DNA of 64,000 bases. It comes from Anaerolineae bacterium (GTDB lineage Bacteria; Chloroflexota; Anaerolineae; Promineifilales; Promineifilaceae). Within the stretch, counting starts at the first letter, position 1. Each line of letters starts with the position of its first letter. The notes beneath the pieces were generated by a model. It saw only the letters and a list, made by a program, of their open reading frames with translations. It was not told the origin of the DNA and searched no databases. This document shows positions 1,998 to 19,760 of the stretch, in pieces. The stretch spans positions 62,001 through 126,000 of the forward strand of contig JAMLHW010000003.1 in assembly GCA_023954475.1 (NCBI GenBank), written 5' to 3'. The translations under genes were made by a program, and so were the position numbers.

Positions 1998-2201
1998 ATG
2001 GGAACAGAGAAAGCAACCTACCGTTCATTTCTACTGCGATTGTGGCAGGTGGAACAAAACGGAGATCGATTGTGGCGCTGTTCGCTGGAGGAAACTGGCA
2101 CGTGCCGGCAGCGCAATTTTGCTGATTTGGAGGCGTTGTTTGGCTATTTAAGCGCTGAAACGAACGTGCCGCCTCCTGCTCGAGAGGAGACTAAGCGATG
2201 A
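1998..2201 (+). CDS. Small conserved protein (67 aa), first gene of a two-gene unit
   Basis: A short frame with the core YRSFLLRLWQVEQNGDRLWR followed by SLEETGT and LEALFGYL. I recognise this pattern (FLLRLW...WR.SLE...F..LEALF.FL) as a small protein family common in Chloroflexota, with no known function. The ATG at 1998 is chosen; an in-frame TTG lies at 1986. Its TGA overlaps the ATG of the next gene (ATGA at 2198-2201), so the two are probably translationally coupled. It faces away from the BTAD regulator across about 250 bases that must hold both promoters; no convincing -35/-10 pair is visible there. No signal peptide or membrane segment is present. Confidence 0.6.
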   Translation: MGTEKATYRSFLLRLWQVEQNGDRLWRCSLEETGTCRQRNFADLEALFGYLSAETNVPPPAREETKR

Positions 2202-3889
2202 AGAAACTAGTTTGTTTTTTGGTGATTCTATTCATCTTGCTCAGTGGTTGTGGTGGGGACAGTAGCGATACGAATTCAGCGGCTACTGATCCGGCTGAAT
2301 CTCCAGCTACAGCAACGGTCGTGCCCACGCCTACCCCTATGCCGGAGCCAACCGAGGCTGTCGCTTTGATCACTTCGGCCGAAAATATGACCGGCATCTG
2401 GTCAGGAACCTTGGCAGGCGAAACCGGATACGTCATGTACACGGCAGATGGTCGCTACATGGTCGCACTTTCACAGGACGCATTAGCCTCAGCGCCCCGC
2501 GTATCTGGTGAATATTGGTTTGAAGACAACCAAATTCACCTGCGCGATCTGGAAAATGTCGGACATTGGACTCCGTGTGATACGGAAACCGTTGGCGTCT
2601 ACGATGTAGTTGACCTGGGCGATGGACGGGTCACGTTCCAGATGGTTGTTGATGAATGCGGCGACAGCGGGTTTACCCGCAGCTACTTATTCACCAACAT
2701 GATGCAGAAGTGGATTTCAGAGCCGGTCGAGGTAACCGTGCCGGAGTCATCGGCTATGCCGGAATCGGCGGACACGACAATGCCTGAGTTGGCGGCAGAT
2801 CTGCAAGACATCGCCGATACTTGGGACAACCAGAACGGCGTGCCTGGCGTGATTCTGTTAGTCGATGCGCCGGATTTGGACTTCAAGTGGCAGGGTGCAG
2901 CCGGCATGGCTAATCCGGAGGAGGGAGAGCCTATGTTGCCCGGCGATCAATTCATCATCTCCAGCATGACGAAGATGATTACGGCCGCGACCGTCATGAA
3001 GTTGGTTGAGCAAGGTGACCTGGCGTTGGATGATCCCATCAGCCTCTACCTGCCGGCCGAGCTTGTTTCGCGGCTCCTTGTGCTGGACGGCGAATCATAC
3101 GGCGACGCCATCACGGTGCGCCAACTGCTCAACCATACCAGTGGCCTGGGTGACTTCTCGAACGGCGAAGACGCCGACGGCAACAGGCTACCTGATTTCA
3201 AGGATCTGGTTCTGAATGAGCCGGACACGATCTGGGATGGATCGATGGTGCTGGAGTGGGCCATCGCCAACGCGCCGCCGGTGGCCCGGCCGGGAGAGAC
3301 TTTCAACTACAGCGACACCAACTACCAGTTGCTGGGCATGATTATCGAATCGACCTCGGGACTGGCGCTACACGACGCCTATCGCCAGTTCATCTTTGAA
3401 CCTCTGGGGATGGACCACACCTATTTTGAGTTTTGGGAAGCAGTCATTCCCGGTCCGGACGGCCGGAGCGTCAGCAACGCCTATTACTATGGAAACCTAT
3501 GGAATGAGCTAGATAGTCATTCCTATGAGTGGGGTTCGGGCGGGCTTGTGTCAACGGCCGCTGATATGAACACGTTTCTTTGGGCCTGGGTAAACGACGA
3601 TCTGTTTGCCGATCCGGCCAGCAAAGAGTCAATGATGGAATGGGTCGAAACGGCCGATGCAGGCGTTTATTACGGGTTGGGCATCTACCGCTTCGTGCTT
3701 GACGATTGGGATATTCCTGGTCTAGGCGAAATGCTAGGGCACGACGGCCTATTCAACAGCCAGGCTTTTTATTGGCCGGAGAAAAACGCGACCATCGTGG
3801 GGACCCTGAATTCAAATGAACCGCGGCTGGGGTACATTGGCATGATGATAGAGGTGATGACAGCCGTTGCGGAACACACAGCACCATAG
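2198..3889 (+). CDS. Serine hydrolase lipoprotein (beta-lactamase class C / penicillin-binding-like family)
   Basis: The 563-residue product starts with a lipoprotein signal peptide ending in the lipobox LSGC (Cys18), then a Pro/Thr linker. Residues ~55-170 form a beta-rich domain of a lipocalin-like type (GIWSGTLAGETGYVMYTADG). The C-terminal half is a class C beta-lactamase-type serine hydrolase: SMTK at 256-259 supplies the nucleophile and lysine, YSDTN at 371 the tyrosine motif, and HDG at 515-517 the third motif. Members act on D-Ala peptides, esters or beta-lactams; the substrate cannot be read from sequence. The protein should sit outside the membrane, lipid-anchored. It is coupled to the small upstream gene by an ATGA overlap; GAGAGGA upstream is a good ribosome site. 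Confidence 0.88.
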   Translation: MKKLVCFLVILFILLSGCGGDSSDTNSAATDPAESPATATVVPTPTPMPEPTEAVALITSAENMTGIWSGTLAGETGYVMYTADGRYMVALSQDALASAPRVSGEYWFEDNQIHLRDLENVGHWTPCDTETVGVYDVVDLGDGRVTFQMVVDECGDSGFTRSYLFTNMMQKWISEPVEVTVPESSAMPESADTTMPELAADLQDIADTWDNQNGVPGVILLVDAPDLDFKWQGAAGMANPEEGEPMLPGDQFIISSMTKMITAATVMKLVEQGDLALDDPISLYLPAELVSRLLVLDGESYGDAITVRQLLNHTSGLGDFSNGEDADGNRLPDFKDLVLNEPDTIWDGSMVLEWAIANAPPVARPGETFNYSDTNYQLLGMIIESTSGLALHDAYRQFIFEPLGMDHTYFEFWEAVIPGPDGRSVSNAYYYGNLWNELDSHSYEWGSGGLVSTAADMNTFLWAWVNDDLFADPASKESMMEWVETADAGVYYGLGIYRFVLDDWDIPGLGEMLGHDGLFNSQAFYWPEKNATIVGTLNSNEPRLGYIGMMIEVMTAVAEHTAP

Positions 3890-4238: not shown

Positions 4239-4739
4239 CTAAATAAAGATAATCTGTGCGTCTTCACTTAATTCCATGAAGTCAGTTGCGCCGACGATGC
4301 CCTCGACACCTTCATACAAATCTTCTTCGTGCAGTTGGAACATGTCTGTCGATAAACGGCATGCATAGAGCTTGCCGCCGGCGTCTGTGATCATCTCTAG
4401 AAATTCCGGAATTTCGGGGAACTCCAGCTTGTCCATTTCCTTTTTGATCATTGATGTCGCCATATTGGTCATGCCCGGAAAACCGGCCACCGCGTTGGGA
4501 ATGCCAATGGTACGGTTGCCGAAATTCATCTTGTGCGGATTGCCGATAGGCGTGAACTTGAGGTTGCTCATCTCACGCTTGGTGATCATATCCAGTCCCC
4601 AGAACGTGAAGAAAATCGTCACGTCAATCCCTTCCATCAAGGCGGCGTTCGCCAATACTAGACCCGGATATGCCATATCAAGCGTACCCTTTGAACAAAT
4701 AATGCATAATTTGCGATCAGTTTCTTTTTCGTCCCACAT
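4239..4739 (-). CDS. DsrE/DsrF-like sulfur-handling protein (DsrE2 type)
   Basis: The 166-residue soluble protein begins with a Rossmann-like strand carrying paired cysteines (LCIICSKGTLDMAYPGLVLA; Cys12 and Cys15), then EGIDVTIFFTFWGLDMI, which is typical of the DsrE2 / peroxiredoxin-associated DsrE group. A further cysteine lies in KLYACRLSTDMF. Family members bind and pass on sulfane sulfur. It is the last gene of a leftward operon with TusE, DUF1641 and an SQR homologue, so a role in handling sulfur released by sulfide oxidation is likely. GAGGTG lies in front of the ATG. The exact acceptor is unknown. Confidence 0.85.
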   Translation of the reverse strand: MWDEKETDRKLCIICSKGTLDMAYPGLVLANAALMEGIDVTIFFTFWGLDMITKREMSNLKFTPIGNPHKMNFGNRTIGIPNAVAGFPGMTNMATSMIKKEMDKLEFPEIPEFLEMITDAGGKLYACRLSTDMFQLHEEDLYEGVEGIVGATDFMELSEDAQIIFI

Positions 4740-4792
4740 GATGTCACCTCGTTTGTCGTAGTTGGTACTGTTGTGTCAACAGGCTGTCGTTG

Positions 4793-5110
4793 CTAAATAC
4801 AGCCATGTGGTTTGCCTAATCCGGAGACGTAGGCAATCTTTTTGGCCGGCTTTTTCGGGAACAATTCGTACAGGTCCTTTGTCGGCACGCCGGCGGCTAC
4901 TTTGAGACGACGCAGCGTGGGTGCTTCGCCTCGCTCGTCAAAGTCAGAGCGTGAAAACTCGATTACTTGCCAGTGTGATGCCGTCAATTCATCGATACCG
5001 ACTTCGTGTGCCAATTCCTGGGCCACATCTTTATCCCAATCTTGCGGGTTGGCCAGGAAGCCATCTTCATCAAATTCAATTGTTTTGCCTGCAATTTCTC
5101 GACTTGTCAT
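4793..5110 (-). CDS. TusE/DsrC/DsvC family sulfur relay protein
   Basis: At 105 residues this is the usual length for TusE/DsrC. FDEDGFLANPQDWDKDVAQE, the central HWQVIEFSR, and the C-terminal GLGKPHGCI are diagnostic. The conserved near-C-terminal cysteine (Cys104) is present, but the second cysteine about ten residues upstream, which true DsrC proteins use to form a trisulfide with sulfite reductase, is replaced (PAKKIAYVSG). It is therefore TusE-like, a single-thiol sulfur carrier rather than a DsrAB partner; no dsrAB is in the window. Its neighbours suggest it receives sulfur from the DsrE-like protein or the SQR homologue. Confidence 0.88.
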   Translation of the reverse strand: MTSREIAGKTIEFDEDGFLANPQDWDKDVAQELAHEVGIDELTASHWQVIEFSRSDFDERGEAPTLRRLKVAAGVPTKDLYELFPKKPAKKIAYVSGLGKPHGCI

Positions 5111-5168
5111 GGTTTAGTTCTCCAAAAGGTTATAGTTTGATCGGGTGAGTTTGTTTTCTCATCCCTGA

Positions 5169-5864
5169 TTATGTGTCAGACATCGTTTTTAAGACGTTGA
5201 GTGTTTTGCTCAACCCACGTCGTACGCCGGGATCGTTGAGCTGGCGCATAATGGCGAAGAGGGAGGGAGTTTCGGCCGAATCCTCTTCTGTCAATTCTAT
5301 TACCGAACTTCTCAGCAGACGCATCAGTTCCGGCTGCGTCATTTCCTTGAGCGTATCCAGAATCAGCACGATGTTCTCACCCAACTGTTCAATGTCGTCC
5401 TCGGTGTAATTGGTCACAATTCGATCGAGGATGCCCATGCCGCCAGCTACAAACGTAAAGTAGCCTTTGCGCTCCATCTCGTCCAAACGCGCCATTACGG
5501 TCACAAACGCATCCTGCGACAATGGGCTGAGATCACTACCCAACTCGACCAGACTCTCAAACTGATCGAGCATTTGCTCCAAGTTGCGCGTATTGCGTAA
5601 CAGCCGCTTGAACAGGTGCAAAATGTCTTCAAGCTGGACATGAGGCTCGATCTCTTCCAATTGCGTTACGGTTAACCGGTACATATCCATCGCGATCGGC
5701 GTCATATCTTGCTTCAGTTCTGACCATTCCAACCGAGCCTGCTGCTGTGCCCGCGCTTCTTCGGCGAGAAATGCAACTTGTGCGGTCAGCGCGTCGATCT
5801 TGCGATTGAGATCAGCGATGGTTTCAGATTCGGCCGATATGGGATTTATCACCAACGTATCCAT
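5169..5864 (-). CDS. DUF1641 domain protein
   Basis: The 231-residue soluble, mainly helical protein starts with a likely coiled coil (residues ~15-50, IADLNRKIDALTAQVAFLAE). Its middle, with GYFTFVAGGMGILDRIVTNY, matches DUF1641, a family often found next to sulfide:quinone oxidoreductases and formate dehydrogenase-type genes. The function is unknown; a membrane-associated or scaffolding partner of the oxidoreductase has been suggested from gene order only. The start lies 9 bases after the SQR stop, so the two are surely cotranscribed. Confidence 0.8.
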   Translation of the reverse strand: MDTLVINPISAESETIADLNRKIDALTAQVAFLAEEARAQQQARLEWSELKQDMTPIAMDMYRLTVTQLEEIEPHVQLEDILHLFKRLLRNTRNLEQMLDQFESLVELGSDLSPLSQDAFVTVMARLDEMERKGYFTFVAGGMGILDRIVTNYTEDDIEQLGENIVLILDTLKEMTQPELMRLLRSSVIELTEEDSAETPSLFAIMRQLNDPGVRRGLSKTLNVLKTMSDT

Positions 5865-5873
5865 GCCAACCTC

Positions 5874-7106
5874 CTAATTCCATTTGCCGGCCATCGACAT
5901 CTGCGACGTGATCGGCATTTCCTTGCCCTTGAGCAAAATATTCCAATACATCCAACGGAACATCATTTTGCCCCAATGGTTCATTTCCGATTCCTGCAGC
6001 AAAGAGAATGGACCAACGCCAGGCAACGGGAATTTGCCCGGCAGCGGCTCAACATCGTAGTTAAAGTCGATCAAAATGCCTTTGCCGAAGCCGGATTCGA
6101 TGTAGCAGTTCGCATGGCCGTCAAACTGATGCGTCATTTCCAGCCCATCGATATAGCGCAGGAAATTTTCAGTCCATGTTTCAACTGCGAAATGGGCGAC
6201 CGAACCAGCTTTGGATGTCGGCAGCGCTGCTGCATCGCCGAGGGCAAAAATGTTGTCATAATCAGCGTGCACAAATGTGTGTTTGTCAACCGGCACATGG
6301 TTCAATTCGTCGCCCAAACCGGACTGTGCGATCATTTCAGCGCCCATGTTGACGGGAATTGTCACCAGCATATCGTATGGCACTTCATTTTCATCATACG
6401 ACCGCAATACCTTCGCATCCTGATCCACGCCTTCTGCATAGAAATCGGTAACGAGGTGAACATTTTTGCGCTCCAGAATATCGCCGAGCAACGCACCGGC
6501 ACGTGGCTTGGTGAACGCACCCGGCAGCGGTGTGACAAAGGTGATATCAACTTTGTCGCGCAAACCCTGTTCATGGAACCACCAATCAGCCAGGAAGACG
6601 AATTCCAGTGGTGCAACCGGACATTTGAACGGCATTTCCATGATGTTGACAACCAGTCGCCCGCCATCCCAATACCGGAGCCGCTTGGCGAGCGTTACTG
6701 CGCCGCTGTGCGTATAGAATTCATGAATCGTATCGCCCCAGCCCGGCCCTTCTAGCCCCGGAGTTTCTTCCGGCACAGGACGCGTCCCGGTGGCGATGAC
6801 GAGGTAATCGTATTCCAGATAGCGACTGTCTTTGGCCAAACGAACCCGATTCTTTTCCGGTTCGATTTGTTCAATGGGAGACATGATCAAATTGACACCG
6901 GCGGGAATGTAGTTGCGTTTTGGTTTGATGACATCGTTAGGACCATAGATGCCGAACGGGATAAACAGGAATCCAGGCTGATAGTAATGAGTTTCATCTT
7001 GATCGACGATGGTGATGTCCCATTCGAGCAGATCGAGATGGTGAATCATTTTGTTAGCAACCATTGTGCCGGCGGTTCCTGCACCTAAAATCAATAATTT
7101 TTTCAT
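5874..7106 (-). CDS. Sulfide:quinone oxidoreductase-like FAD flavoprotein
   Basis: The 410-residue protein starts with the FAD-binding LLILGAGTAGT and has a second dinucleotide region (YDYLVIATGTRPVPEETPGL) and the C-terminal FAD motif NIFALGDAAALPTSKAG. Only two cysteines occur, Cys162 in FKCPVAPLEF and Cys334 in GHANCYIESG; they align with the redox-active pair of SQRs. Family members oxidise sulfide to polysulfide and reduce quinone at the membrane. The ATG at 7106 is chosen because AAAGGAG lies nine bases before it; an in-frame TTG further out lies inside that site. It is the first enzyme gene after the regulator. A flavocytochrome or related disulfide reductase is the alternative. Confidence 0.87.
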   Translation of the reverse strand: MKKLLILGAGTAGTMVANKMIHHLDLLEWDITIVDQDETHYYQPGFLFIPFGIYGPNDVIKPKRNYIPAGVNLIMSPIEQIEPEKNRVRLAKDSRYLEYDYLVIATGTRPVPEETPGLEGPGWGDTIHEFYTHSGAVTLAKRLRYWDGGRLVVNIMEMPFKCPVAPLEFVFLADWWFHEQGLRDKVDITFVTPLPGAFTKPRAGALLGDILERKNVHLVTDFYAEGVDQDAKVLRSYDENEVPYDMLVTIPVNMGAEMIAQSGLGDELNHVPVDKHTFVHADYDNIFALGDAAALPTSKAGSVAHFAVETWTENFLRYIDGLEMTHQFDGHANCYIESGFGKGILIDFNYDVEPLPGKFPLPGVGPFSLLQESEMNHWGKMMFRWMYWNILLKGKEMPITSQMSMAGKWN

Positions 7107-7168
7107 CTGATTGGCTCCTTTAGACAAGAGGTGAAAGTGGAAAAGCGTGATTTTTCACCCATCATCCT

Positions 7169-7888
7169 TCATCCTTTCAATATGGTGCGCTCGCTGGCAA
7201 TGTGTGACACGATGTCAGCAATGCGCTGAATGAGTGCGAGGACGTGGTCGCGTTCCGCACTGGTCAAATGGTAAACGTCATCGAGGTGTGGCTGAAGTAG
7301 ATCGACTGTTACGCCGAGTTTGTGTGCCATGTTATCCAGTTGCGTACCTGTTGGCGGCCAGTTGTCCGGCGCAAGTCCGCCGACAAATACCATACCCTCC
7401 AGTGAGCTGCCCACGCGAATCAATCCGCGTGCGCACAGTAAGCCCAAAGAACTGTGGGTGAATGTCGGCGCAATAACGGGTTTTGCAGCCATTTCGTGCC
7501 AATGATCGACGCATGTTTGCCACACTTGCGGGTAGGCATGTAGCGCAGTGAACAGGCCGCAGGGATTGCTCGGCTCGGTGATCGGATTGCCCTGCATATC
7601 GGTCATAATGATCATCACGTCGAGTGCATCGGCGAATCCGTCTTGCACCAGTTGGACGCAATCGAGCGGCAAAATGTCGTGTAGACGACTGCTGGAAGTC
7701 GACTGGTTGTTGTGTTGAGCAACTGTGTTTTTATTGCCGAGCAGAGTGTGGATTTCGGCCGAATCAAATCGCCATTGCCGACCAACTTTAACAGCCGGGA
7801 TGCGCCCGTCTTCAGCCATGCGGTATACCGTTGAGCGATCTACCAGAAGAATTTCCTGAACATCTTTGGCTGTAAGCAATGTTGACAT
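7169..7888 (-). CDS. Excisionase-type HTH regulator with PocR sensory domain
   Basis: The N-terminus (LLTAKDVQEILLVDRSTVYR) is an excisionase/MerR-like helix-turn-helix of residues ~3-50. After a Ser/Asn-rich linker, residues ~75-235 match the PocR ligand-binding domain, including the hallmark SNPCGLF and a later Cys in LLCARGLIRVG. PocR domains bind small ligands or metals. The ATG at 7888 has GGATCGGA upstream; the frame stays open for another 57 codons with an odd His/Met-rich stretch (MHAMHMHHMHSM), which I judge to be operator DNA rather than protein. It lies 62 bases upstream of the SQR gene, same strand, and most likely controls this sulfur operon and itself. Confidence 0.82.
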   Translation of the reverse strand: MSTLLTAKDVQEILLVDRSTVYRMAEDGRIPAVKVGRQWRFDSAEIHTLLGNKNTVAQHNNQSTSSSRLHDILPLDCVQLVQDGFADALDVMIIMTDMQGNPITEPSNPCGLFTALHAYPQVWQTCVDHWHEMAAKPVIAPTFTHSSLGLLCARGLIRVGSSLEGMVFVGGLAPDNWPPTGTQLDNMAHKLGVTVDLLQPHLDDVYHLTSAERDHVLALIQRIADIVSHIASERTILKG

Positions 7889-8231
7889 CGATTCCGATCC
7901 ATTTGTGAAATAATGAACAAGTATAGATGGAATGATACGGGTGCAGAACGGGTAGCAACAGTGACTTTCGGCCGAATCGCGTATGACAAATGTCACATCC
8001 TGCATACTATGCATGTGATGCATGTGCATGGCGTGCATTTTGTCGGTGCAAACTCCCATGTGGCCGCAGCGTTTTCGGTCAGTATCCGCACTTGAACCTC
8101 AATTCAATGCATATCAGAAACTCCTCAGACGCACTCGTAACAATTTTCACAAACAGTTGACAGAGTTATACTAGCGGATGGTGTCCGGTACTTATGCCGG
8201 TTTGACTACGTACTAATTCAAGGAAAATCTC
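7889..8231. other. Divergent control region between PocR-type regulator and RND transporter
   Basis: 343 bases. It contains TGACA-AA-TGTCA, five TGCAT repeats, one TCGGCCGA (7968), and further right TTGACA (8157-8162) and TATACT (8167-8172), which are too close together to form one promoter. AAGGA precedes the RND start at 8232. No small gene is convincing. Confidence 0.55.
7984..8038. promoter_or_regulatory. Candidate operator: inverted repeat plus five TGCAT repeats
   Basis: TGACA (7984-7988) and TGTCA (7991-7995) form a 5-bp inverted repeat with a 2-base centre. It is followed by TGCAT at 8001, 8010, 8019, 8025 and 8034, two of them within the palindrome ATGCAT. Spacings of 9, 9, 6 and 9 bases suggest ordered protein binding. 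The PocR-type regulator is the obvious candidate binder. The role is inferred from position only. Confidence 0.45.
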
Positions 8232-11200
8232 ATGCTTTCCAGATTCTTCGATAAAATCACGCGTCTATCCGTGCGGTTCAAATGGGTGACGTTGATCCTC
8301 ACTTTTACTGTGTTGGCTGCCGGACTTTATGCTTTGACCCAGCTCAATCAGGAACTGCTGCCTCCGATTAGTTTCCCGCAAACAATTGTCGTGACGCAAT
8401 GGTCTGACTCGGAATCGGCCGAACAGCTTCTTAGCGAAATAACCGATCCGCTTGATGCTGCCTTGAGTGAAATCGAAGGCGTTGTCAATGTTGAGTCGAC
8501 GACCAACAATAGCTTTGCCGTGACGATTGTGCGCAACGAATTTGGACTGAATCAGGATCGCGTCGTCGAAACCATCGAAACGTTGACTGATGCATTTGCT
8601 CTGCCTGAAGGGGCTGAGATACAAGTGTTCACCTTCGACTTGGGTGATCTGCCGGTCGTGATTTCCAGTATCAGTTCATCGGAATTGACACTGCCCGAAC
8701 TCAAAGCTGTGATCGAAAACGAACTGCGACCTACGTTACTCGACATCGAAAACGTCAGTGAGGTTGCCGTCAGTGGTGGTCAGGAATTGCCCAAAGATGA
8801 GCCGGCAGCCGGTGTTGCCGATGATTCGGCCGAACCGGAGCCGGAACCAACCGCCACACCCAATCCTGCCGCCGCCGAAAAACCGCTCAGCCGCCTCAAT
8901 TTCACCTTGCGCACTGCGCTCAGCGCTTACGGCTTTGATGACATTGAAAATGCGCAGGATATTACGGCGGAGCAGGCATTGGCAGTCATCGGCCTTGGTG
9001 ATATTGCTATACAGGCGTTGGAGCAACTCAGTGACGAAAATCTGCTGGCCATTGATCCGGAAACATTGGCTTACCTGCCTAGCGACTATACTGAAACACT
9101 CGATTCTGACTTGCTCGATGAGCTGAATGCGCGTTCGGCCGAATTTGGTGGCGTGGGCCAATTCACCCTTGCTGAAGCCGTTGCAGCCAAAGAAGCCGGC
9201 GTCAACGTGCTGACAGGTGAACCGCTCGATGCGGCCGCAATCATTGAAGTGCCAACTGCGACACCAGAACCTGAACCAACGGCCGAACCGGTCGAAGAGA
9301 CCGTCGCTACTGGGGTTGCGTTGCCAGACGAATGGGTACAAGCGGCAGCGGCTCAAGGCGTCACAATTACGACCACGGCTGATTTGACGCCCGAATTTAT
9401 CGGCGCGCTCGTCACGCTGGCTCCGGAATCACTCCAACTGTTGACGCCGGAAATGGTGCTGGCGCTGTCGGCCGAACAGTTGGCCGCGCTTCCTGAAGAA
9501 TATTTCGCTACATTGGACGAGGAAACCCAGGCTGCGTTGGCGGAAAAGGCGGCTGCAAATGATGTCGCCATGGCCGAATCTGAACCGGTGGCCTTGCCCG
9601 AAGAATGGGTGCAAGGGGCAGCGGCTCAAGGCGTCACAATTACGACCACGGCCGATTTGACGCCTGAATTTATCGGCGCGATAGTCACGCTGGCTCCGGA
9701 ATCACTCCAACTGTTGACACCGGAAATGTTGCTGGCGATGTCGGCCGAACAGTTGGCCGCGCTTCCTGAAGAATATTTCGCTACATTGGACGAGGAAACC
9801 CAGACTGCGCTGGCCGAAAAGGCGGCTGCAGATGCTGGTGCCATGGCCGACTCTGAACCGGTTGCCTTGCCCGAAGAATGGGTGCAAGCGGCAGCGGCTC
9901 AAGGCGTCACAATTACGACTACGGCTGATTTGACGCCCGAATTCATCGGTGCGATTGTGACACTTGCGCCGGAATCGTTGCAATTGTTGACACCGGAGAT
10001 GGTGCTGGCATTGTCGCCCGAACAACTGGCTGTTTTGCCGGAAGAATTCATTGCGTCGCTTGACGAAGGGACGCAAGCCGCATTGCTGGCACGGCTCGAA
10101 TCTTCGGCCGAAACACCCACAGTTGAACCGGTCGCGTTGCCGGAAGAATTGGTCGCCGGCGCTGCGGCACAGGGCTTGACCATCACGACAACTGCCGATC
10201 TGACCCCTGAACTGCTGGGCGGCATTGCGCAAGTTGCACCTGAATCACTGCAACTGCTGACGCCGGAAATGTGGCGGTCTATGCCGCCGGAAACGCTGGC
10301 TGCTGTCTTGCCGGTTGCGGGTGCGGCGTTGGATGCTGATTTGGTGGCCCAATTGGCGGCGATTGTGGCGGCTGCAACTGGTGAAATGCCCGATTCGGCC
10401 GAATTGCCGCAATCGTGGATCGACGCTGCTGCGACTGCCGGATTTCCTATTGAAACGACAGAAGACATCTTGCCCGAAGCGCTTTCCGGCATCGCCGGAC
10501 TCGCCCCCGAACTGCTTGCCGACCTCACGCCCGAGATAATTCTGGCGCTGACACCGGCCAATCAGGCCGCATTGCCGGCCGACTACATCGCGACGCTCGA
10601 TGAAGGATTGCAGGAAACGTTGGCCATCATCGCCATTCGCGATGCGCAATTCCAGTTGGCGCAGGCAGAAGAAAGCGGTGCTGACGAAGAAATGGTCGAG
10701 GAAGAACCGGTCGATCCGGCCCGCTTGCCTGATCTGCTGGTCAACGGTTTTGCGCAGCAGGGGCTGGAGATCGAAAACGCGCAAGACATTCCGGCCGATT
10801 TGATGCGCCAGTTGAGCGGCATCGGCGAGCAAGCGACGCAGTTGCTTGGTTTGCTGACACCAGACAATTTGCGCCTGTTGCAGCCGGAGGTAATCGCCTT
10901 GCTGCCGGAGGCGTTCCTCGACACGCTGGACGCCGATTTGCGTGCTGAGTTGGACGAACTGGCTGCCGAATTTGGCGGTGCGGGTCAACTTGCCATTCAG
11001 GAAGCGGAGGAAGCGGCTGCGCTGGCTGAAGGCGCACCTGCTTTATCCGGTGCCTGGCTCGAACCGGGTCCTGATGGCGAACCACCGCTATTTACGACGG
11101 CGGCTGACCTCGTGAATAATCCGTTTGCCCCTGGCGCAGCCGCTCTGTTGAGCTTCTTGCCGCAGCAGGCGGAAGATCCCGGTGCACTCATGTCATCGCT

Positions 11201-13517
11201 GACACCGAATGTGATTGCGTTCATCATCGAAAATGAGCCTGATTTCCTGGCCAACATGCCGACGACGGTGCTGGAACTGATGTCGGCCGAAACGTTGCAA
11301 TTTATCATCGATGAATATGGTGATGATCTCGACGCTGAAAAACGGGACCGTCTGGCTGCCATTGCAGCCGGCGAGGTAGAAGTGTTTGTACCCGAATCGA
11401 GTATCACGCGTAGCAACAGCAATCCCGCTCTCATCCTGCAAGTGTTCAAAGAAGGTGACGCAAACACAGTTACCGTCGCACACGAAATCTTTGACGCGCT
11501 CGATGCGTTTGAAGCCAACAATGGCGTTGATATCGAACTCGCATTTGAACAGGCGTCGTTCATTGAAGATTCGATTAACGGTGTCGCCCGCGAAGGGTTG
11601 CTCGGTGCATTCTTTGCCGTCATCGTTATTCTGATTTTCCTCAGTGGTCGCGTCAATGGTAAATACAAGCTCAGTTGGCGTGCAACCTTGATTGTTGCGT
11701 TGTCCATTCCGACTTCGGTCTTGTTCGCGATTTTGCTCATGTGGCTGTTGCCGGTCACCGTTGGTCAGCAGTTTGAGACAATTCGCGATGGCACAAACAG
11801 TTCGTTCTTACGCGCGGTGTTGAGTCTTATTCCGGCGTTTGTGACGCTCAATATCATGACGCTCAGTGGTCTGACAGTGGCAATCGGCCGAGTTGTTGAC
11901 GACTCGATCGTTGTACTCGAAAACAGCTATCGTTATATCCAAAAAGGCCACGATCCAGAGCAGGCTGTCTTCCAGGGTACGCAGGAAGTGGCAGTTGCCA
12001 TTTTCTCCGCCACGATTACGACCATGGCCGTTTTCCTGCCGCTGGGTCTCATTGGCGGTTTGATCGGTACGTTCTTCCTGCCGTTCGGACTGACTGTCAC
12101 CTACGCTCTGGCGGCTAGTTTTATCGTGTCGATCACGGCAGTTCCGGCTTTAACTTCGATGTTGATTCGCAAGGAAAACATCCCGGAAGAGAAAGAAACG
12201 TGGATGCAGCGCACCTACACACCGATGCTCGTGACTGCGCTCAAACACCGCGCGGTCACAATGATTATTGCGCTTTTGCTCTTCTTCGGCGCGATCTATC
12301 TGTTGACGACGTTGCCCCAGAGCTTTATTCCGTCGTTGGGTGAACCGACGGTCAATGTGACCATTCAATTGCCCAGTGATACGGGTATTCTCGAAACAAA
12401 TGAAAGGGTCACCGAATTTGAAGAAACGGTGAGCGCTATTGCGGGGGTTGAGACAATTCTGACGGAAGTCGGCGGTGCCGGCGGCTTTGAGTCGTTTTTT
12501 GGTGGCGGCGGTGTCGCGCAAAATGCAGCTAATTTGACGATTTCGGTGCTTGAAGAGTATCAGGAAGAGATTGATGGGATTGCTGAAACGGTGCGTATGG
12601 AAGCGGCTGATGCGTTCGGCGAAGACAATGCGTCCGTTTCTGCTGCCAGTCAAACTGGTTTCAGTGGATTCAGTATTATTGTAACGGCAGATTCGCTCGA
12701 AGATCTCCTCAAATCGGCCGATGATATTCAGGCAGCACTGGCAGAACTCGATGCTGACGGCAACGGAAAACCCGACTTGTTTAACATCACGACTAATGCC
12801 GATGCCGCCCGCGACGGTGCTACCATCATCCGCATCGATGGCCGCCCGGCGATCAGCTTCAGTGCTGAACTGGATACGGCCGATACAATTGGTATTGCCA
12901 CCTCCGCCAAAGAAGCCATCAACGCGATTCCAGGCCTGCCTGCCAATACTGAAGCAAGTGAAGGGTTTGATACGCAGCAGCAAACGGAAGGGTTTGCCAG
13001 CATGGTTTCGGCAATCGGCATCTCGATCATCATCGTTTACATCATCATGGCGATCACGTTCCGCAGTCTTGTCCACCCGTTTGTGATTCTATTCAGTCTG
13101 CCATTTGCCATGGTCGGCGCTGCACTGGCGCTGTGGCTCACGGGTAGTGTGCTCGGTATCGCAGCTATGGTCGGTATGTTGATGCTGGTCGGTGTGGTGG
13201 TGACGAACGGTATTGTCCTTATGGAGCTGGTCAAGCAGCTCAAGGAAAAGGGCGAATTGACTTACGATGCGCTGGTTGAAGCGGGTCGCACGCGTCTGCG
13301 GCCGATCTGGATGACGGCGTTGACGGCGATTCTGGCATTGATTCCGCTGGCATTGAGCAGGGAAGGCGGTGCGATTATCGCAGGTGAACTGGGCATTACC
13401 GTGATTGGTGGTTTGCTGGTGGCGACGGCATTGACGTTGATCGTGGTGCCGGTTGTTTACAGCTTGCTCGATCAGGGTATTGTCGGTTTCAAGCGGCGTA
13501 TTGGCCGCAGCCAGTAG
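8232..13517 (+). CDS. RND-family efflux transporter with giant repeat-built periplasmic insert
   Basis: The 1761-residue protein starts as a normal AcrB/HAE-type RND permease (first TM ~17-37, then the porter segment LNQELLPPISFPQTIVV). After residue ~185 (NVSEVAVSGG) comes a Pro/Glu linker and about 870 residues of degenerate ~90-residue repeats, rejoining the RND fold near residue 1060 (NPALILQVFKEGDANTV). Two membrane blocks follow (~1115-1330 and ~1590-1750). The RND proton-relay signature VVDDSIVVLE has Asp1223 and Asp1224. Normal RND pumps have 1000-1100 residues, so about 700 are extra. The insert sits where the porter and docking domains face the outside. No membrane-fusion protein or outer-membrane channel gene is adjacent, fitting a cell without a typical TolC system. 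AAGGA lies ahead of the ATG. Confidence 0.9.
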   Translation: MLSRFFDKITRLSVRFKWVTLILTFTVLAAGLYALTQLNQELLPPISFPQTIVVTQWSDSESAEQLLSEITDPLDAALSEIEGVVNVESTTNNSFAVTIVRNEFGLNQDRVVETIETLTDAFALPEGAEIQVFTFDLGDLPVVISSISSSELTLPELKAVIENELRPTLLDIENVSEVAVSGGQELPKDEPAAGVADDSAEPEPEPTATPNPAAAEKPLSRLNFTLRTALSAYGFDDIENAQDITAEQALAVIGLGDIAIQALEQLSDENLLAIDPETLAYLPSDYTETLDSDLLDELNARSAEFGGVGQFTLAEAVAAKEAGVNVLTGEPLDAAAIIEVPTATPEPEPTAEPVEETVATGVALPDEWVQAAAAQGVTITTTADLTPEFIGALVTLAPESLQLLTPEMVLALSAEQLAALPEEYFATLDEETQAALAEKAAANDVAMAESEPVALPEEWVQGAAAQGVTITTTADLTPEFIGAIVTLAPESLQLLTPEMLLAMSAEQLAALPEEYFATLDEETQTALAEKAAADAGAMADSEPVALPEEWVQAAAAQGVTITTTADLTPEFIGAIVTLAPESLQLLTPEMVLALSPEQLAVLPEEFIASLDEGTQAALLARLESSAETPTVEPVALPEELVAGAAAQGLTITTTADLTPELLGGIAQVAPESLQLLTPEMWRSMPPETLAAVLPVAGAALDADLVAQLAAIVAAATGEMPDSAELPQSWIDAAATAGFPIETTEDILPEALSGIAGLAPELLADLTPEIILALTPANQAALPADYIATLDEGLQETLAIIAIRDAQFQLAQAEESGADEEMVEEEPVDPARLPDLLVNGFAQQGLEIENAQDIPADLMRQLSGIGEQATQLLGLLTPDNLRLLQPEVIALLPEAFLDTLDADLRAELDELAAEFGGAGQLAIQEAEEAAALAEGAPALSGAWLEPGPDGEPPLFTTAADLVNNPFAPGAAALLSFLPQQAEDPGALMSSLTPNVIAFIIENEPDFLANMPTTVLELMSAETLQFIIDEYGDDLDAEKRDRLAAIAAGEVEVFVPESSITRSNSNPALILQVFKEGDANTVTVAHEIFDALDAFEANNGVDIELAFEQASFIEDSINGVAREGLLGAFFAVIVILIFLSGRVNGKYKLSWRATLIVALSIPTSVLFAILLMWLLPVTVGQQFETIRDGTNSSFLRAVLSLIPAFVTLNIMTLSGLTVAIGRVVDDSIVVLENSYRYIQKGHDPEQAVFQGTQEVAVAIFSATITTMAVFLPLGLIGGLIGTFFLPFGLTVTYALAASFIVSITAVPALTSMLIRKENIPEEKETWMQRTYTPMLVTALKHRAVTMIIALLLFFGAIYLLTTLPQSFIPSLGEPTVNVTIQLPSDTGILETNERVTEFEETVSAIAGVETILTEVGGAGGFESFFGGGGVAQNAANLTISVLEEYQEEIDGIAETVRMEAADAFGEDNASVSAASQTGFSGFSIIVTADSLEDLLKSADDIQAALAELDADGNGKPDLFNITTNADAARDGATIIRIDGRPAISFSAELDTADTIGIATSAKEAINAIPGLPANTEASEGFDTQQQTEGFASMVSAIGISIIIVYIIMAITFRSLVHPFVILFSLPFAMVGAALALWLTGSVLGIAAMVGMLMLVGVVVTNGIVLMELVKQLKEKGELTYDALVEAGRTRLRPIWMTALTAILALIPLALSREGGAIIAGELGITVIGGLLVATALTLIVVPVVYSLLDQGIVGFKRRIGRSQ
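9321..10403 (+). repeat. Tandem ~273-base coding repeats inside the RND gene
   Basis: Units start at 9321, 9594, 9867, 10137 and 10404 (periods 273, 273, 270, 267). Each encodes LPxxWVxxAAAQGVTITTT, then DLTPEF, LAPESLQLLTPEM, LSAEQLAALPEE and LDEETQAAL. Units one and two are nearly identical in DNA, so duplication is recent. More diverged units extend to about 8890 on the left and 11000 on the right. TCGGCCGA sits at the same point of units one and two (9468, 9741) and is lost in unit three. Confidence 0.9.
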
Positions 13518-13537
13518 ACTGTTCTTCTAAAGAATCA

Positions 13538-13574
13538 GGGCATCGGCCGATTTCGATTCGGCCGATGCCCTTTT
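13538..13574. terminator. Bidirectional hairpin terminator built from two TCGGCCGA copies
   Basis: GGGCATCGGCCGA (13538-13550) pairs perfectly with TCGGCCGATGCCC (13558-13570) around a 7-base loop, followed by TTTT. It separates the convergent RND and prs genes. Both arms carry the window's iterated palindrome, so each arm can also fold on itself. Confidence 0.85.
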
Positions 13575-14801: not shown

Positions 14802-16181
14802 ATGCTGTGCAGATTTTGCTTTGTGCTCTTGATGTTGCTGATGTTGTCGGTAGCCTGCCAAACGGGTGCAGCAACGCCTCCGGTGGCTGAAGAACCTGTG
14901 GCGACGGTTGTGCAGAGCCGTGTCACTGTTTCGGCCGAATCCATTGCGCCCACAACCGCTCCAACAATCGTTCCACCAACAGCAACAGCGCTACCAACAC
15001 CCACACCGACGCCTTTCGTCATCATCAATCCATCTGAGCCTTGCGGCATCTTGCTGCCGCTGACATTACCAGCGCAGTCAGCAACAAGCGATGCCATTGA
15101 TTTTGACGAACTGCCTGACAACATACCGGAACTTGCCTTACCCGCTTTGATGGAACTGCTGGCTGATCCCGGCCATGTCGGTCTCGCTGCCTATCGCGTC
15201 GGTGATAAAGCTAACGGCATCTTTCTCAATGCCGATACGCCGATGCCGCTGGCGTCGGCGGTCAAGCTCATCCACGCCATTGCCTATGTCCGCGCTGTCG
15301 AAAATGGTGAGCTGGATCCGACCACGGTCATACCCGTTGCCGATCTTGATGCCTTTTACCTGCCTGGCTCTGATTTGAACTCACACCGATTGGCGTTACA
15401 GGAATTGGCAGCAGACGGGAAACTGGTTGAAGATGGCACAGGTGTTTTGTTGCGCGACATACCGTGGATGATGATGCGGTATAGTTCCAATGCGGCAACG
15501 GATTATTTGCATGTTTTACTTGGACAGGAACGCATCGAACAAACCATTATTGATCTCGAATTGACACCTCATAGCGCTCCGTGCCCGTTTATCGGCCGAT
15601 TTCTGCTGATGGGCAATCACACGCGCACGATTTCTGACCGCACCGCGTTGGAGGAGTTGATTGCCGAGCCCGAACGGTATGCACAAGATGTGGCGCTGCT
15701 GACCGATACATTTAGTCAGGATGCTGCATTTCGTTCGGCCGAAACACGCTGGGGTCGGCCGAATCCCAATACGCGCACGCAAGAAATGTACACCGCTGTC
15801 TGGGATACGCGCAGTACGGCTCGTGTTTATGCAAACCTGATGGCACGAATTGCCGCCGGTGATCTCGGTTCGCCTTACGGCAATGCCCTGCTGCGCAGCT
15901 ATCTCGATTGGCCGCTGGAAGCGTTTCCGCGCAATCAGGAATTGTTCTCGGCAATTGGATTCAAAGGTGGAACATTGCCCGGTGTTTTAACCACCGTATA
16001 TTATGGTTATCCGTGGGGTTCGGCCGAACCGATTGTCGTCGCGCTTTTTTACAATGACTTACCGTTGCGCACCTATCAGCAATGGCGTCGCTCACTACCC
16101 CACGACGAATTGGCACACTGGCTGCTACGCGATCCGGAGGCAATTCCTACACTGCGCACGCTGCTTGATCAATCACCTTGA
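14802..16181 (+). CDS. Class A beta-lactamase-like serine hydrolase lipoprotein
   Basis: The 459-residue product carries a signal peptide ending in the lipobox LSVAC (Cys19) and a Thr/Pro linker to about residue 75. The catalytic domain shows SAVK at 152-155 (SxxK), YSSNAAT for the SxN motif, and FKGGTLPGV for the KTG-type motif. This order fits the beta-lactamase2 / class A family of secreted serine hydrolases. Real antibiotic resistance is not implied: many environmental members are peptidases or esterases of unknown substrate. The last 13 bases overlap the end of the convergent HD-domain gene. The upstream ~230 bases contain one TCGGCCGA and no strong promoter. Confidence 0.83.
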   Translation: MLCRFCFVLLMLLMLSVACQTGAATPPVAEEPVATVVQSRVTVSAESIAPTTAPTIVPPTATALPTPTPTPFVIINPSEPCGILLPLTLPAQSATSDAIDFDELPDNIPELALPALMELLADPGHVGLAAYRVGDKANGIFLNADTPMPLASAVKLIHAIAYVRAVENGELDPTTVIPVADLDAFYLPGSDLNSHRLALQELAADGKLVEDGTGVLLRDIPWMMMRYSSNAATDYLHVLLGQERIEQTIIDLELTPHSAPCPFIGRFLLMGNHTRTISDRTALEELIAEPERYAQDVALLTDTFSQDAAFRSAETRWGRPNPNTRTQEMYTAVWDTRSTARVYANLMARIAAGDLGSPYGNALLRSYLDWPLEAFPRNQELFSAIGFKGGTLPGVLTTVYYGYPWGSAEPIVVALFYNDLPLRTYQQWRRSLPHDELAHWLLRDPEAIPTLRTLLDQSP

Positions 16182-16895: not shown

Positions 16896-19760
16896 CTATG
16901 GGCCAGGTGCGGGTGGCGTGAATGTAGCCGTCGGTCCGACCGGCGTGTCCGTTGGAGCAGGAGGTGTATCAGTCGGTGCAGGCGGCGTGTCGGTCGGCGC
17001 GGGTGGCGTAAAGGTTGCTGTCGGTACCGGTGGTGTAAAGGTCGCTGTCGGTGCCGGAGGCGTAAATGTCGCTGTTGGCGCCGGCGGTGTAAAAGTAGCC
17101 GTAGGCGCAGGCGGCGTAAACGTTGCTGTTGGTGTCGGCGTATCTGTCCCCGGTGGCGCAGGCGGCGTAAACGTCGGCGTTGGCGTTGGCGTCAGTGTGA
17201 CCGGAGCGGGCGGTGTAAACGTCGGCGTCGGCGATGGCGTCGGCGTAAACGTCAAAGTTGGCGGCAGCGGTCGTGTGCGGGTCGGAGGTGGCGGCGGACC
17301 TTGTGGTGTCGCTGTCATCGTCGGTGAAGGCGTCACCAATGGCACACACGGGTCAAGCCCCTGTTGCACTTTTTGACCGTCGGAAATTGCGTCTCCCGTT
17401 GTACTCCACAGCACGGGGCTTAAGCAGCCGCTCTGGATCTCGAACAGGTCTGTCAACCCATCACTATCTGTATCCCCGAGCAGCAGATTAGTGCCAAAGC
17501 GAAACGTTTCATCACCATCCAGCACGCCGTCGCCATCGGTATCAGGATTATTGGGGTTGCTGCCAATAAGCGCTTCCTGGCCATTGCTGACCGAATCGCC
17601 GTCGTTATCATCAAGTGGACTGGGTAAGGTCACAGTCGGTGTCGGCGATCCATTTGACGGCACAGTTCCCGGCAAAATGATGACTTGAGTCGGTGTGGCT
17701 GTTGGTGTTGGCCCGCGCCCTCCCGGAGGGAAAATGAGCAGTGCTGTAATGAGAAAACAAGCCGACAGCAAGATGACAAAAGCGAGACCCGATAGCCAGC
17801 CAGGAATTATCGACTTGGCTAGCGCTTCGCCCGTTTGTATCTGGGTACCCCCACCGGATGAAGTCACTTCTACTCGGAATGGTAAGATCGTGTTCCCCGG
17901 TATCAAACGCGATCGTTTGGGCGACAGTGTCAGATTTACATCCTTGCTGTCACCCGCAGGAACTGCAACCCGGCCGGTTTCTCCGCCAAACACAATTTCG
18001 TCGGAATCATCTCGGCCGACGACAGAATAGTTAACCGTTGCGTTCCCCAAATTGCGCACTTTCACATTGACAGCGCCGGGCAGCACCGGATCGGTTGGAG
18101 CGATGTCCATTTCAAACCGTTCGAATGCATCGACGTTTAGTGTGGCACCGGTGCCAACTTGCGCGTCAGGGTGGTTTTGTGAGACCAATTCCACTCGAAA
18201 ACGATGACGCCCATTGGCTGTCGAAGCGCGACGCGGTGGTTTTACCTGAAAACTGAGATTAATGCGTTCGCCGGGTGGCACCGTTTCAAATTGATCGGGC
18301 AGGCGTACCCAATCATCGGGTAAGCCAACGACACGCAGCTGTACACGATCTTCAACATGGGCCTGGTTTGTTACGTCGGCATTGAAATCGGCCGAATGAC
18401 CTGGTTCGACACGCTTGGCAGTTTGCGCCAGAAAAAGGCGTAACGGAGCGGCTGAACTACTTGTTGCGGCGGCAGCTGCAGCACCGGCAGCCGCACCCGC
18501 AGCAGCGATGGCCCTGTCTCGTTCCGGCCCTTCCAGCACCATTTTGTACGGCCCGATCCGCACACTATCACCAGGGCGCAACAATACTTGTTCATCGACA
18601 TTTAGTCGCCGGTCGCCAACATACGTGTCGCCGTCATCACTGCGATTCTGGAGTTGCCATCCGGCTTCTGTTGCGACCAGCCGTGCATGAAATCGCGAAA
18701 CCGTATCATACGGCAAAATGATCTCGTTCTTGGCATCGCGACCCAACCGATAGAGCGGCAAGATCAGCGGCGTGCGCGTCGGTGTGCCCCGCCCTGTGTC
18801 GATAACCAGGGTATAACCGTCAGGCGGTGTATCGACCTCACGCGCATCGCTTCTTGGCGTAGAAAATACGCGTGTCGGTGCATCATCAAGCGCTAGTAAC
18901 GTGTTGCGCAACACCTCGGCCATCTCAGCGCCGCTCGTAAAGCGATCTTCCCGGTCTTTTGCCAGGGCGCGATTGAGCAATGTATCGATTAGTGGTGGTG
19001 CATCAGGGCGAATCGAACTGGCAGTAGTGGGCATGTCCCCACGCAAATGTGTCATTACCGCCTGGGAGACCGTCTCAAATTCAAACGGCAATCGTCCGGT
19101 AATCAGTTCGTACAAAACGACGCCCAATGAGTAGAGATCGGTACGCCCGTCCAGCTCTTTGCCTTCAAGCTGTTCTGGTGACATATAGACCGGCGTTCCC
19201 ATCATCACACCCATATTGGTGATGCGTTCGCCGGAGAGCAGTTGAACCAGTCCAAAATCCGTCAAAATGGCGCGAAATGGCGCAAAACGGGGTTCTTCCG
19301 GGCGTTGTACCCGTTTCAGAATGATGTTACCTGACTTTACATCGCGGTGAATGATATTTTGACCGTGCGCGTAGCCGAGTGCATCGGCCATCTGAATGCC
19401 GACTTGCACTGCGTGCGGCAACGGGAACAAGCGGTTCTGCGTTCCCAGGCGGTGCAGATGCTCGCGCAAGCTCCCGTCGCGCAAATACTCCATGGCGATA
19501 TAGAGATTGCTGTCGGCGTCCTCGCCAAATTCGTAGATTTGAACGATGGAGGGATGGTCGAGTTGTGCGGCGGCGCTGGCTTCCTGCTTCAGACGTTCGC
19601 GAAATTCGGGTCGGCGAGCAAAATGGGGGTGCATGACCTTGAGCGCAACTTGTCGACCCAAATTCAGATCGCGAGCGCGATACACGCTGCCCATACCCCC
19701 ATCACCGATGCGTTCTTCGATGAGGTAGTTGGCGATTTGGCGTCCGATCAAGTCACTCAT
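16896..19760 (-). CDS. Transmembrane Ser/Thr protein kinase with FHA domain and extracellular calcium-type repeats
   Basis: Residues 1-280 are a PknB-type kinase: GDGGMGSVYRARD glycine loop, VALKVM (Lys41), IIHRDVKSGNI and LTDFGL. Residues ~335-420 form an FHA domain (YRLGRDAKNEIILPYDTVSR, then FHARL) that reads phosphothreonine. Two Ig-like/NEW1-type beta segments follow, still before a single membrane helix at ~657-680 (LSGLAFVILLSACFLITALL). Outside the membrane come thrombospondin type-3-like calcium repeats (DDNDGDSVSNGQE, NPDTDGDGVLDGDE, GDTDSDGLTDLFE) and a long TFTPPAPTA repeat tail to the C-terminus. The layout suggests calcium- or wall-linked sensing transmitted to the cytosolic kinase, though the order kinase, FHA, Ig-like segments and then TM is unusual. 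The HD gene lies directly downstream. Confidence 0.9.
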   Translation of the reverse strand: MSDLIGRQIANYLIEERIGDGGMGSVYRARDLNLGRQVALKVMHPHFARRPEFRERLKQEASAAAQLDHPSIVQIYEFGEDADSNLYIAMEYLRDGSLREHLHRLGTQNRLFPLPHAVQVGIQMADALGYAHGQNIIHRDVKSGNIILKRVQRPEEPRFAPFRAILTDFGLVQLLSGERITNMGVMMGTPVYMSPEQLEGKELDGRTDLYSLGVVLYELITGRLPFEFETVSQAVMTHLRGDMPTTASSIRPDAPPLIDTLLNRALAKDREDRFTSGAEMAEVLRNTLLALDDAPTRVFSTPRSDAREVDTPPDGYTLVIDTGRGTPTRTPLILPLYRLGRDAKNEIILPYDTVSRFHARLVATEAGWQLQNRSDDGDTYVGDRRLNVDEQVLLRPGDSVRIGPYKMVLEGPERDRAIAAAGAAAGAAAAAATSSSAAPLRLFLAQTAKRVEPGHSADFNADVTNQAHVEDRVQLRVVGLPDDWVRLPDQFETVPPGERINLSFQVKPPRRASTANGRHRFRVELVSQNHPDAQVGTGATLNVDAFERFEMDIAPTDPVLPGAVNVKVRNLGNATVNYSVVGRDDSDEIVFGGETGRVAVPAGDSKDVNLTLSPKRSRLIPGNTILPFRVEVTSSGGGTQIQTGEALAKSIIPGWLSGLAFVILLSACFLITALLIFPPGGRGPTPTATPTQVIILPGTVPSNGSPTPTVTLPSPLDDNDGDSVSNGQEALIGSNPNNPDTDGDGVLDGDETFRFGTNLLLGDTDSDGLTDLFEIQSGCLSPVLWSTTGDAISDGQKVQQGLDPCVPLVTPSPTMTATPQGPPPPPTRTRPLPPTLTFTPTPSPTPTFTPPAPVTLTPTPTPTFTPPAPPGTDTPTPTATFTPPAPTATFTPPAPTATFTPPAPTATFTPPVPTATFTPPAPTDTPPAPTDTPPAPTDTPVGPTATFTPPAPGP
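16915..17270 (-). repeat. Low-complexity coding repeat (TFTPPAPTA units) in kinase tail
   Basis: Tandem units of about 27-30 bases encoding Thr-Pro-Ala-rich repeats at the C-terminus of the kinase. On the + strand they read as GGCGTAAACGTCGG-like units. Such tails usually span the cell wall. Likely to vary in copy number; this is protein-coding, not a CRISPR array. Confidence 0.85.

Follow-up and report, generated by a model that had tools for sequence, protein, structure and literature searches.

The window, a stretch of DNA of 64,000 nucleotides, harbors at 8232-13517 an unbroken open reading frame of 1761 residues, without an internal stop, which encodes an RND permease. When the 5.12-Mb genome (26 contigs) was searched with the pump protein, the sole match was the protein itself. 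A divergently oriented gene encoding a possible regulator of the pump precedes this reading frame, and a terminator-like hairpin directly follows it, the pump gene being probably transcribed alone. The features of the locus, in window coordinates, are as follows.

7169..8059, minus strand: HTH_17-PocR regulator, divergent from the pump gene (Pfam PocR 4e-16, HTH_17 1.7e-13)
8232..13517, plus strand: RND permease, one unbroken reading frame (reading-frame inspection, Pfam, genome search)
8271..8345, plus strand: TM1, residues ~14-38 (hydropathy)
8349..8780, plus strand: PN1 and first half of PN2, residues ~40-183, with a conserved GGQ at the end (PF00873 match, AlphaFold2 strands and helices, fold match)
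8781..11417, plus strand: insert in the docking-subdomain (DN) slot, residues 184-1062, 879 residues (Pfam, MdtB alignment, slot lengths)
8892..9140, plus strand: helical unit R1, residues 221-303 (profile match 1.1e-24)
9315..9554, plus strand: helical unit R2, residues 362-441 (profile match 3.9e-31; 273-bp tandem copy)
9588..9827, plus strand: helical unit R3, residues 453-532, 92% amino acid identity to R2 (profile match, tandem copy)
9861..10097, plus strand: helical unit R4, residues 544-622 (profile match 1.9e-32)
10131..10367, plus strand: helical unit R5, residues 634-712 (profile match 5.7e-30)
10401..10634, plus strand: helical unit R6, residues 724-801 (profile match 7.4e-29)
10722..10964, plus strand: helical unit R7, residues 831-911 (profile match 3.8e-25)
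11199..11369, plus strand: divergent C-terminal unit R8, residues 990-1046 (profile match 4.2e-6)
11418..11585, plus strand: second half of PN2, residues ~1063-1118 (MdtB and Pfam alignments, AlphaFold2)
11574..12329, plus strand: TM2-TM7, residues ~1115-1366 (hydropathy)
11898..11903, plus strand: Asp1223-Asp1224 proton-relay pair in TM4 (invariant in alignment A1)
12486..12848, plus strand: C-terminal loop segment, residues 1419-1539, lacking DC (length against insert-less relatives)
12984..13490, plus strand: TM8-TM12, residues ~1585-1753 (hydropathy)
13537..13571, no strand assigned: intrinsic terminator-like hairpin of 14 pairs (hairpin search)

The RND core of the encoded protein is intact, as had been stated in an initial annotation of this DNA, with a PF00873 match of 460 bits over four stretches (cut-off, 28), hydropathy segments consistent with 12 transmembrane helices, large loops following TM1 and TM7, and the TM4 pair D1223-D1224, which is invariant across alignment A1. 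The TM11 Arg is likewise retained. At the position of K940, the Lys in TM10 of AcrB, the pump has Thr, a residue found there in 113 of 126 aligned proteins and, therefore, a trait of the wider group. The best sequence relatives of the pump in the PDB include chains of MdtB, AcrD and MexB. In the AlphaFold2 model of the first loop (30 sequences; mean pLDDT 84.1, pTM 0.40), PN1 and PN2 match the RND porter fold with Z scores of ~13-14, and the matches returned for the whole model were filled by RND porters. The 12-TM core, the porter fold and the Asp-Asp pair are shared with the tripartite HAE-1 pumps AcrB and MdtB, whereas DN, DC, an adjoining adaptor gene and a genomic TolC are all absent, and the TM10 Lys is changed.

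The Pfam match breaks off at profile position ~181 and picks up at ~268, and the alignment to MdtB similarly breaks off at MdtB residue 191 and resumes at 284. DN, whose residue limits are established for AcrB, represents the N-terminal half of the docking (funnel) domain and interrupts PN2. Because the alignment gap matches the position of DN within PN2, residues 184 to 1062 replace exactly DN. The very large extracytoplasmic repeat insert proposed initially is thereby confirmed, but its supposed placement between porter subdomains is corrected, as it splits PN2 where DN sits. The C-terminal loop segment measures 121 residues versus 189 to 218 (mostly ~195-200) in insert-less relatives and is thus ~80 residues short, from which it follows that DC is also lost, a feature which the initial annotation had missed. 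Both docking subdomains are described in a review (PMC8277102).

The insert carries a net charge of -139 and no Cys residue. A special acidity was considered as a functional clue and rejected, since the value of -15.8 per 100 residues lies within the -14 to -18 of the porter parts; charge provides no clue to the role of the array, which is as acidic as the other extracytoplasmic parts.

Eight units of ~80 residues each were detected within the insert, seven at about 1e-24 or better and the divergent C-terminal unit at 4e-6, by a profile made from 14 units, window units among them, such that these E-values are partly a product of its construction. The repeats first reported as about seven in number are real, but there are eight of them. 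R2, R3 and R4 share 82 to 92% protein identity and are encoded by DNA repeats spaced at 273 bp, with copies up to 92% identical, which identifies them as recent duplicates; all other unit pairs are 27 to 61% identical. The linkers between units range from 11 to ~78 residues, and those between some units of a related pump (L071) are longer still. A Pfam search of the insert yielded no convincing repeat family, as none of the matches obtained (for example, the compositional PF08484) had a stretch that passed by itself. Searched for elsewhere, the unit was confined to this pump gene at a threshold of 1e-6 across 249 genomes of the class; matches sit on reading frames which also match the pump, some of them cut by contig ends.

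Each unit is modelled by AlphaFold2 as about six to eight short helices, with a unit pLDDT mostly above 90, and a three-unit model reached a pLDDT of 86.1 and a pTM of 0.45. While the units are confidently predicted, their overall arrangement is not fixed in these models, and an organization resembling beads on a string fits better than a rigid solenoid or tube. The solenoid-like array envisaged earlier is not borne out, as the pTM of the three-unit model and the spread of linker lengths point to flexible joins. As the insert leaves and rejoins one and the same PN2 fold, the chain is expected to loop out and back, and its reach would consequently be at most about half of its contour length.

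Comparison of the three-unit model with the PDB returned no significant fold match, with no Foldseek hit below 0.03. The best weak likeness of the units was to mesothelin chains (Z 4.9 over 80 residues at 4.2 Å; Foldseek E 0.05), a Z score below 5 being within noise for helical repeats. Mesothelin, stereocilin and otoancorin are short-helix, ARM-like extracellular superhelices, to which the units bear this weak fold resemblance. As the mesothelin superfamily has been proposed to bind glycans (PMC2628672), the array could be envisaged as a substrate-capture or surface-adhesion module which binds glycans or other ligands outside the cell, in a mesothelin-like manner. This explanation is, however, considered improbable, given the noise-level fold scores and the lack of any sequence link to mesothelin, stereocilin or otoancorin. 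At the sequence level, a match was obtained with PDB entry 9zem (HeliScrew4), a solved protein which the unit profile detects at 5.7e-17 and which, like the window units, consists of short-helix repeats of the LTPEQxAAL type. It differs in being only 120 residues long and not a known pump part; its entry name suggests a designed protein, and a literature search on HeliScrew found no paper. Entry 9zem was absent from the fold-match list of the three-unit model, perhaps because it is newer than the structure library.

Within the family, 22 of the 52 genomes encode the pump protein or pieces of it, which excludes an assembly artefact or frame fusion; an artefact had been named in the initial annotation as a possible refutation. 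Further Chloroflexota families carry related forms, which are under purifying selection. Related long forms were identified in families f21, f35, f57 and f38 of the class and an intermediate form in f80 of the phylum, the unit number among relatives ranging from 1 to 8, although tandem copies may be miscounted in short-read assemblies. A short ortholog, that of L043, has 1378 residues. The DN slot spans 495 to 879 residues in f1, 466 to 479 in f35, 411 in f57, 517 to 773 in f21, 330 to 349 in f80 and 326 to 402 in f38, against mostly 67 to 150 (a few up to 250) in insert-less pumps of Chloroflexota, Bacillus and Actinobacteria.

In trees built from the slot-free core and rooted on HAE-1-like Chloroflexota pumps (L085-L088), all 31 tested proteins with a slot of at least 300 residues fell within one clade (IQ-TREE UFBoot 99; FastTree 0.982), such that pumps of this type have a single origin across Chloroflexota, the phylogeny which the initial annotation had called for. 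The DC-lost forms likewise constitute one clade (UFBoot 100), with which f38 groups (UFBoot 100). Among relatives without the insert, the pumps of Chloroflexota, Bacillus, Paenibacillus and Actinobacteria stand closest; the window pump groups with the Bacillus and Actinobacteria RND pumps, apart from L085-L088, in a tree whose deeper nodes are weakly supported and which took in a Bacillus haynesii relative (L143) and no named SwrC.

Within the clade, f80 pumps keep both DN and DC and carry three ~55-residue units at the DN tip, f38 pumps keep both and combine LysM with one or two units, and the long forms have lost DN and DC together. The tree suggests a series in which units were added at the DN tip and then joined by LysM before the docking subdomains disappeared and the array grew. 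DN and DC include inter-protomer contacts in AcrB, and their joint loss is seen in this clade only among the proteins compared, which may be taken to mean that the array has assumed the trimer-locking role of DN through array-array contacts. Such a takeover is unlikely, since f80 and f38 carry units alongside DN and DC, and the units, therefore, did not originate as a substitute for this lock.

Over 12 pairs, dN/dS was 0.08 to 0.18 for the insert and 0.05 to 0.14 for the core, up to 3.4 times higher for the insert, values which are rough owing to high dS in some pairs. The insert is, accordingly, constrained, though more loosely than the core. These values bear on the notion that the array has no specific role and arose passively, by tandem duplication within a loop that tolerates it. 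The recent 273-bp duplications and the copy number variation among relatives would lend themselves to this notion, as would the fact that in Bacillus, Actinobacteria and Lihuaxuella this slot is filled by Gly/Ala-rich or coiled-coil-like tails. Purifying selection on the insert, retention of the unit over several families and the coupled loss of DN and DC argue to the contrary, and little probability is attached to it.

LysM domains were found in the docking slot of related Chloroflexota pumps, in two cases (coordinates of L084 and L119, respectively) and weakly in a third, L083.

L084 1588-3471, plus strand: LysM in the RND docking tip, alongside array-type units (7.7e-10)
L119 3419-4741, plus strand: LysM in the RND docking tip (2.3e-8)

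These pumps resemble that of the window in bearing an extra domain in the docking slot, and L083 and L084, which combine LysM with one or two array-type units, belong to the same clade; they differ in keeping DN and DC, whereas the window pump gave no LysM match at E values up to 1. L119 (f77) falls outside the clade, with a weakly supported placement, and LysM at the docking slot probably arose more than once. By eye, Gly/Ala-rich tails can be present at the docking tip of the Bacillus and Actinobacteria pumps, as can a coiled-coil-like stretch in that of Lihuaxuella. The docking tip seems to be a general insertion point in the RND pumps of monoderms.

Enlarged docking tips of coiled-coil-like or Gly/Ala/Gln-rich character were recorded for L163 (Lihuaxuella), L165 (Carboxydothermus), L201 (Paenibacillus) and L179 (Actinocatenispora). 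A second repeat-like insertion, located between PN1 and PN2 and hence outside the DN slot, was observed in L074 (residues ~144-187) and L073 (residues ~131-170), f21/f57 relatives.

Searches of the genome, which is 98% complete, detected neither an outer membrane channel of the OEP/TolC type (PF02321) nor Omp85, although the controls were positive in seven genomes for each, and no outer membrane is, therefore, apparent. Chloroflexota have been described as monoderms with a multilayered envelope, one member encoding a PilO-LysM fusion (PMC13319060). HlyD-type adaptors are encoded elsewhere in the genome and none within the window, which bears out the earlier remark that no membrane-fusion protein gene lies nearby.

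RND pumps of monoderms are already known, as are RND pumps with an extracytoplasmic extension of their own. The former include SwrC (YerP) of Bacillus subtilis and ApeX, which, like the window pump, are AcrB-like permeases without an outer membrane channel and which export amphiphiles (PMC12096827, PMC5596346), ApeX being described as devoid of a docking domain (PMC5596346). Outside Chloroflexota, no relatives closer than the Bacillus and Actinobacteria pumps were found, yet the monoderm pumps tested differ in having a DN slot of ~91-250 residues, ~195-200 residues at DC and no units. The latter are represented by mycobacterial MmpL5 (MmpS5L5), which has an MmpS partner and whose second periplasmic domain carries a 196-residue antiparallel coiled coil, an insertion said to form a tube and required for efflux (PMC12501195). 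Similar to the window pump, MmpL5 operates in an envelope without TolC, bears a large extracytoplasmic insertion and lacks an AcrB-type docking domain (PMC12501195); in the window pump, by contrast, the insertion lies in the DN slot of the first loop and comprises 879 residues of short-helix units. The literature search found no further large-insert RND pump, nor any case of DN and DC replaced by an array of helical units or of LysM in an RND docking slot. The claim that no RND protein of this build had been described accordingly holds for fold and position, as far as could be found, and is weakened by the MmpL5 precedent.

According to the initial suggestion, the insert could take the place of adaptor and tunnel, and a related possibility is that the three arrays of a trimer form a funnel or tube which conducts substrate across the wall, a role put forward for the coiled coil of MmpL5. 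The position of the insert at the apex slot, where the funnel of AcrB sits, the size of the array and the MmpL5 precedent for an RND-encoded conduit (PMC12501195) are compatible with such a duct. The low pTM values of both models indicate no fixed packing, however, unit number and linker length vary, and outer membrane markers were not found in the genome, rendering a conduit a rather unlikely solution. Replacement of adaptor and tunnel is similarly not supported, in view of the closed loop, the flexible joins and the variable unit number, in addition to the absence of OEP and Omp85. Flexible joins and a complement of one to eight units suit a tether better than a duct of fixed length.

It is, therefore, proposed, with a probability of roughly one half, that the protein is a stand-alone, wall-embedded exporter in which the former docking slot has become a wall-facing tether or spacer. 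The pump would be a proton-driven RND exporter of monoderms, related to those of Bacillus and Actinobacteria and working alone, probably as a homotrimer, which may collect amphiphilic or lipophilic compounds at the membrane surface, releasing them outside the membrane. With no TolC present for docking, DN and DC have been lost. DN has given way to some eight small helical domains strung along a loop; this chain would project from the porter top into the cell wall, where it may contact peptidoglycan or wall polysaccharide, hold the pump in place and keep its exit clear. The presence of peptidoglycan-binding domains at the same spot in related pumps makes it probable that the pump is seated in the cell wall by this chain, although LysM is confined to those relatives and no wall-binding motif was recognized in the window pump itself. 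The faster evolution of the insert, such as a spacer under loose constraint would show, is counted against this explanation. Of the earlier idea that the insert reaches through a thick wall, the part concerning entry into the wall is favored by the LysM domains in sister slots, and the part concerning a conduit is not. More tentatively, and as a somewhat doubtful extension, these proteins may constitute a new class of RND pump, in which the TolC-docking apparatus was remodelled in one lineage, via intermediates which survive, to become a chain which binds peptidoglycan or polysaccharide and fixes the pump in the wall of a monoderm, employing a repeat domain which is not in Pfam and has so far been seen only in these pumps.

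The clade bears on the role of the outer end of RND pumps where an outer membrane is lacking. It represents a natural series, comprising a docking domain with units, units with LysM, and up to eight units in place of the docking domain, and thereby renders this question testable within one gene family. It also marks the docking tip as a possible general site for added parts, be they LysM, coiled-coil-like stretches, Gly/Ala-rich tails or bead arrays, and provides a sequence-defined helical unit which resembles the recently deposited HeliScrew4.

A MarR-family gene lies directly upstream of the pump gene, on the same strand, in 15 of 17 f1 orthologs (one of the 15 was checked against Pfam, and the others group with it by BLAST); the window pump gene has no upstream marR. 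MarR-family genes are usual neighbors of efflux genes for lipophilic compounds. A conserved operon with the window neighbors (sulfur genes and PRPP synthetase) was considered and rejected, as no flanking gene recurs beside close orthologs. Beside the PocR-type regulator, a cluster resembling those for sulfur oxidation occupies window positions 4239-7127 (minus strand).

4239-4739, minus strand: DsrE2
4793-5110, minus strand: DsrC
5169-5864, minus strand: DUF1641
5874-7127, minus strand: sulfide:quinone-reductase-like flavoprotein

Two genes encoding domains of the beta-lactamase family flank the region at 2198-3889 and 14802-16181 (both plus strand), and a gene at 16896-19760 (minus strand) encodes a Ser/Thr kinase with an FHA-like portion, after which come a membrane segment, calcium-binding-like "DTDGDG" repeats and a long proline-rich tail of the form (TFTPPAP)n.
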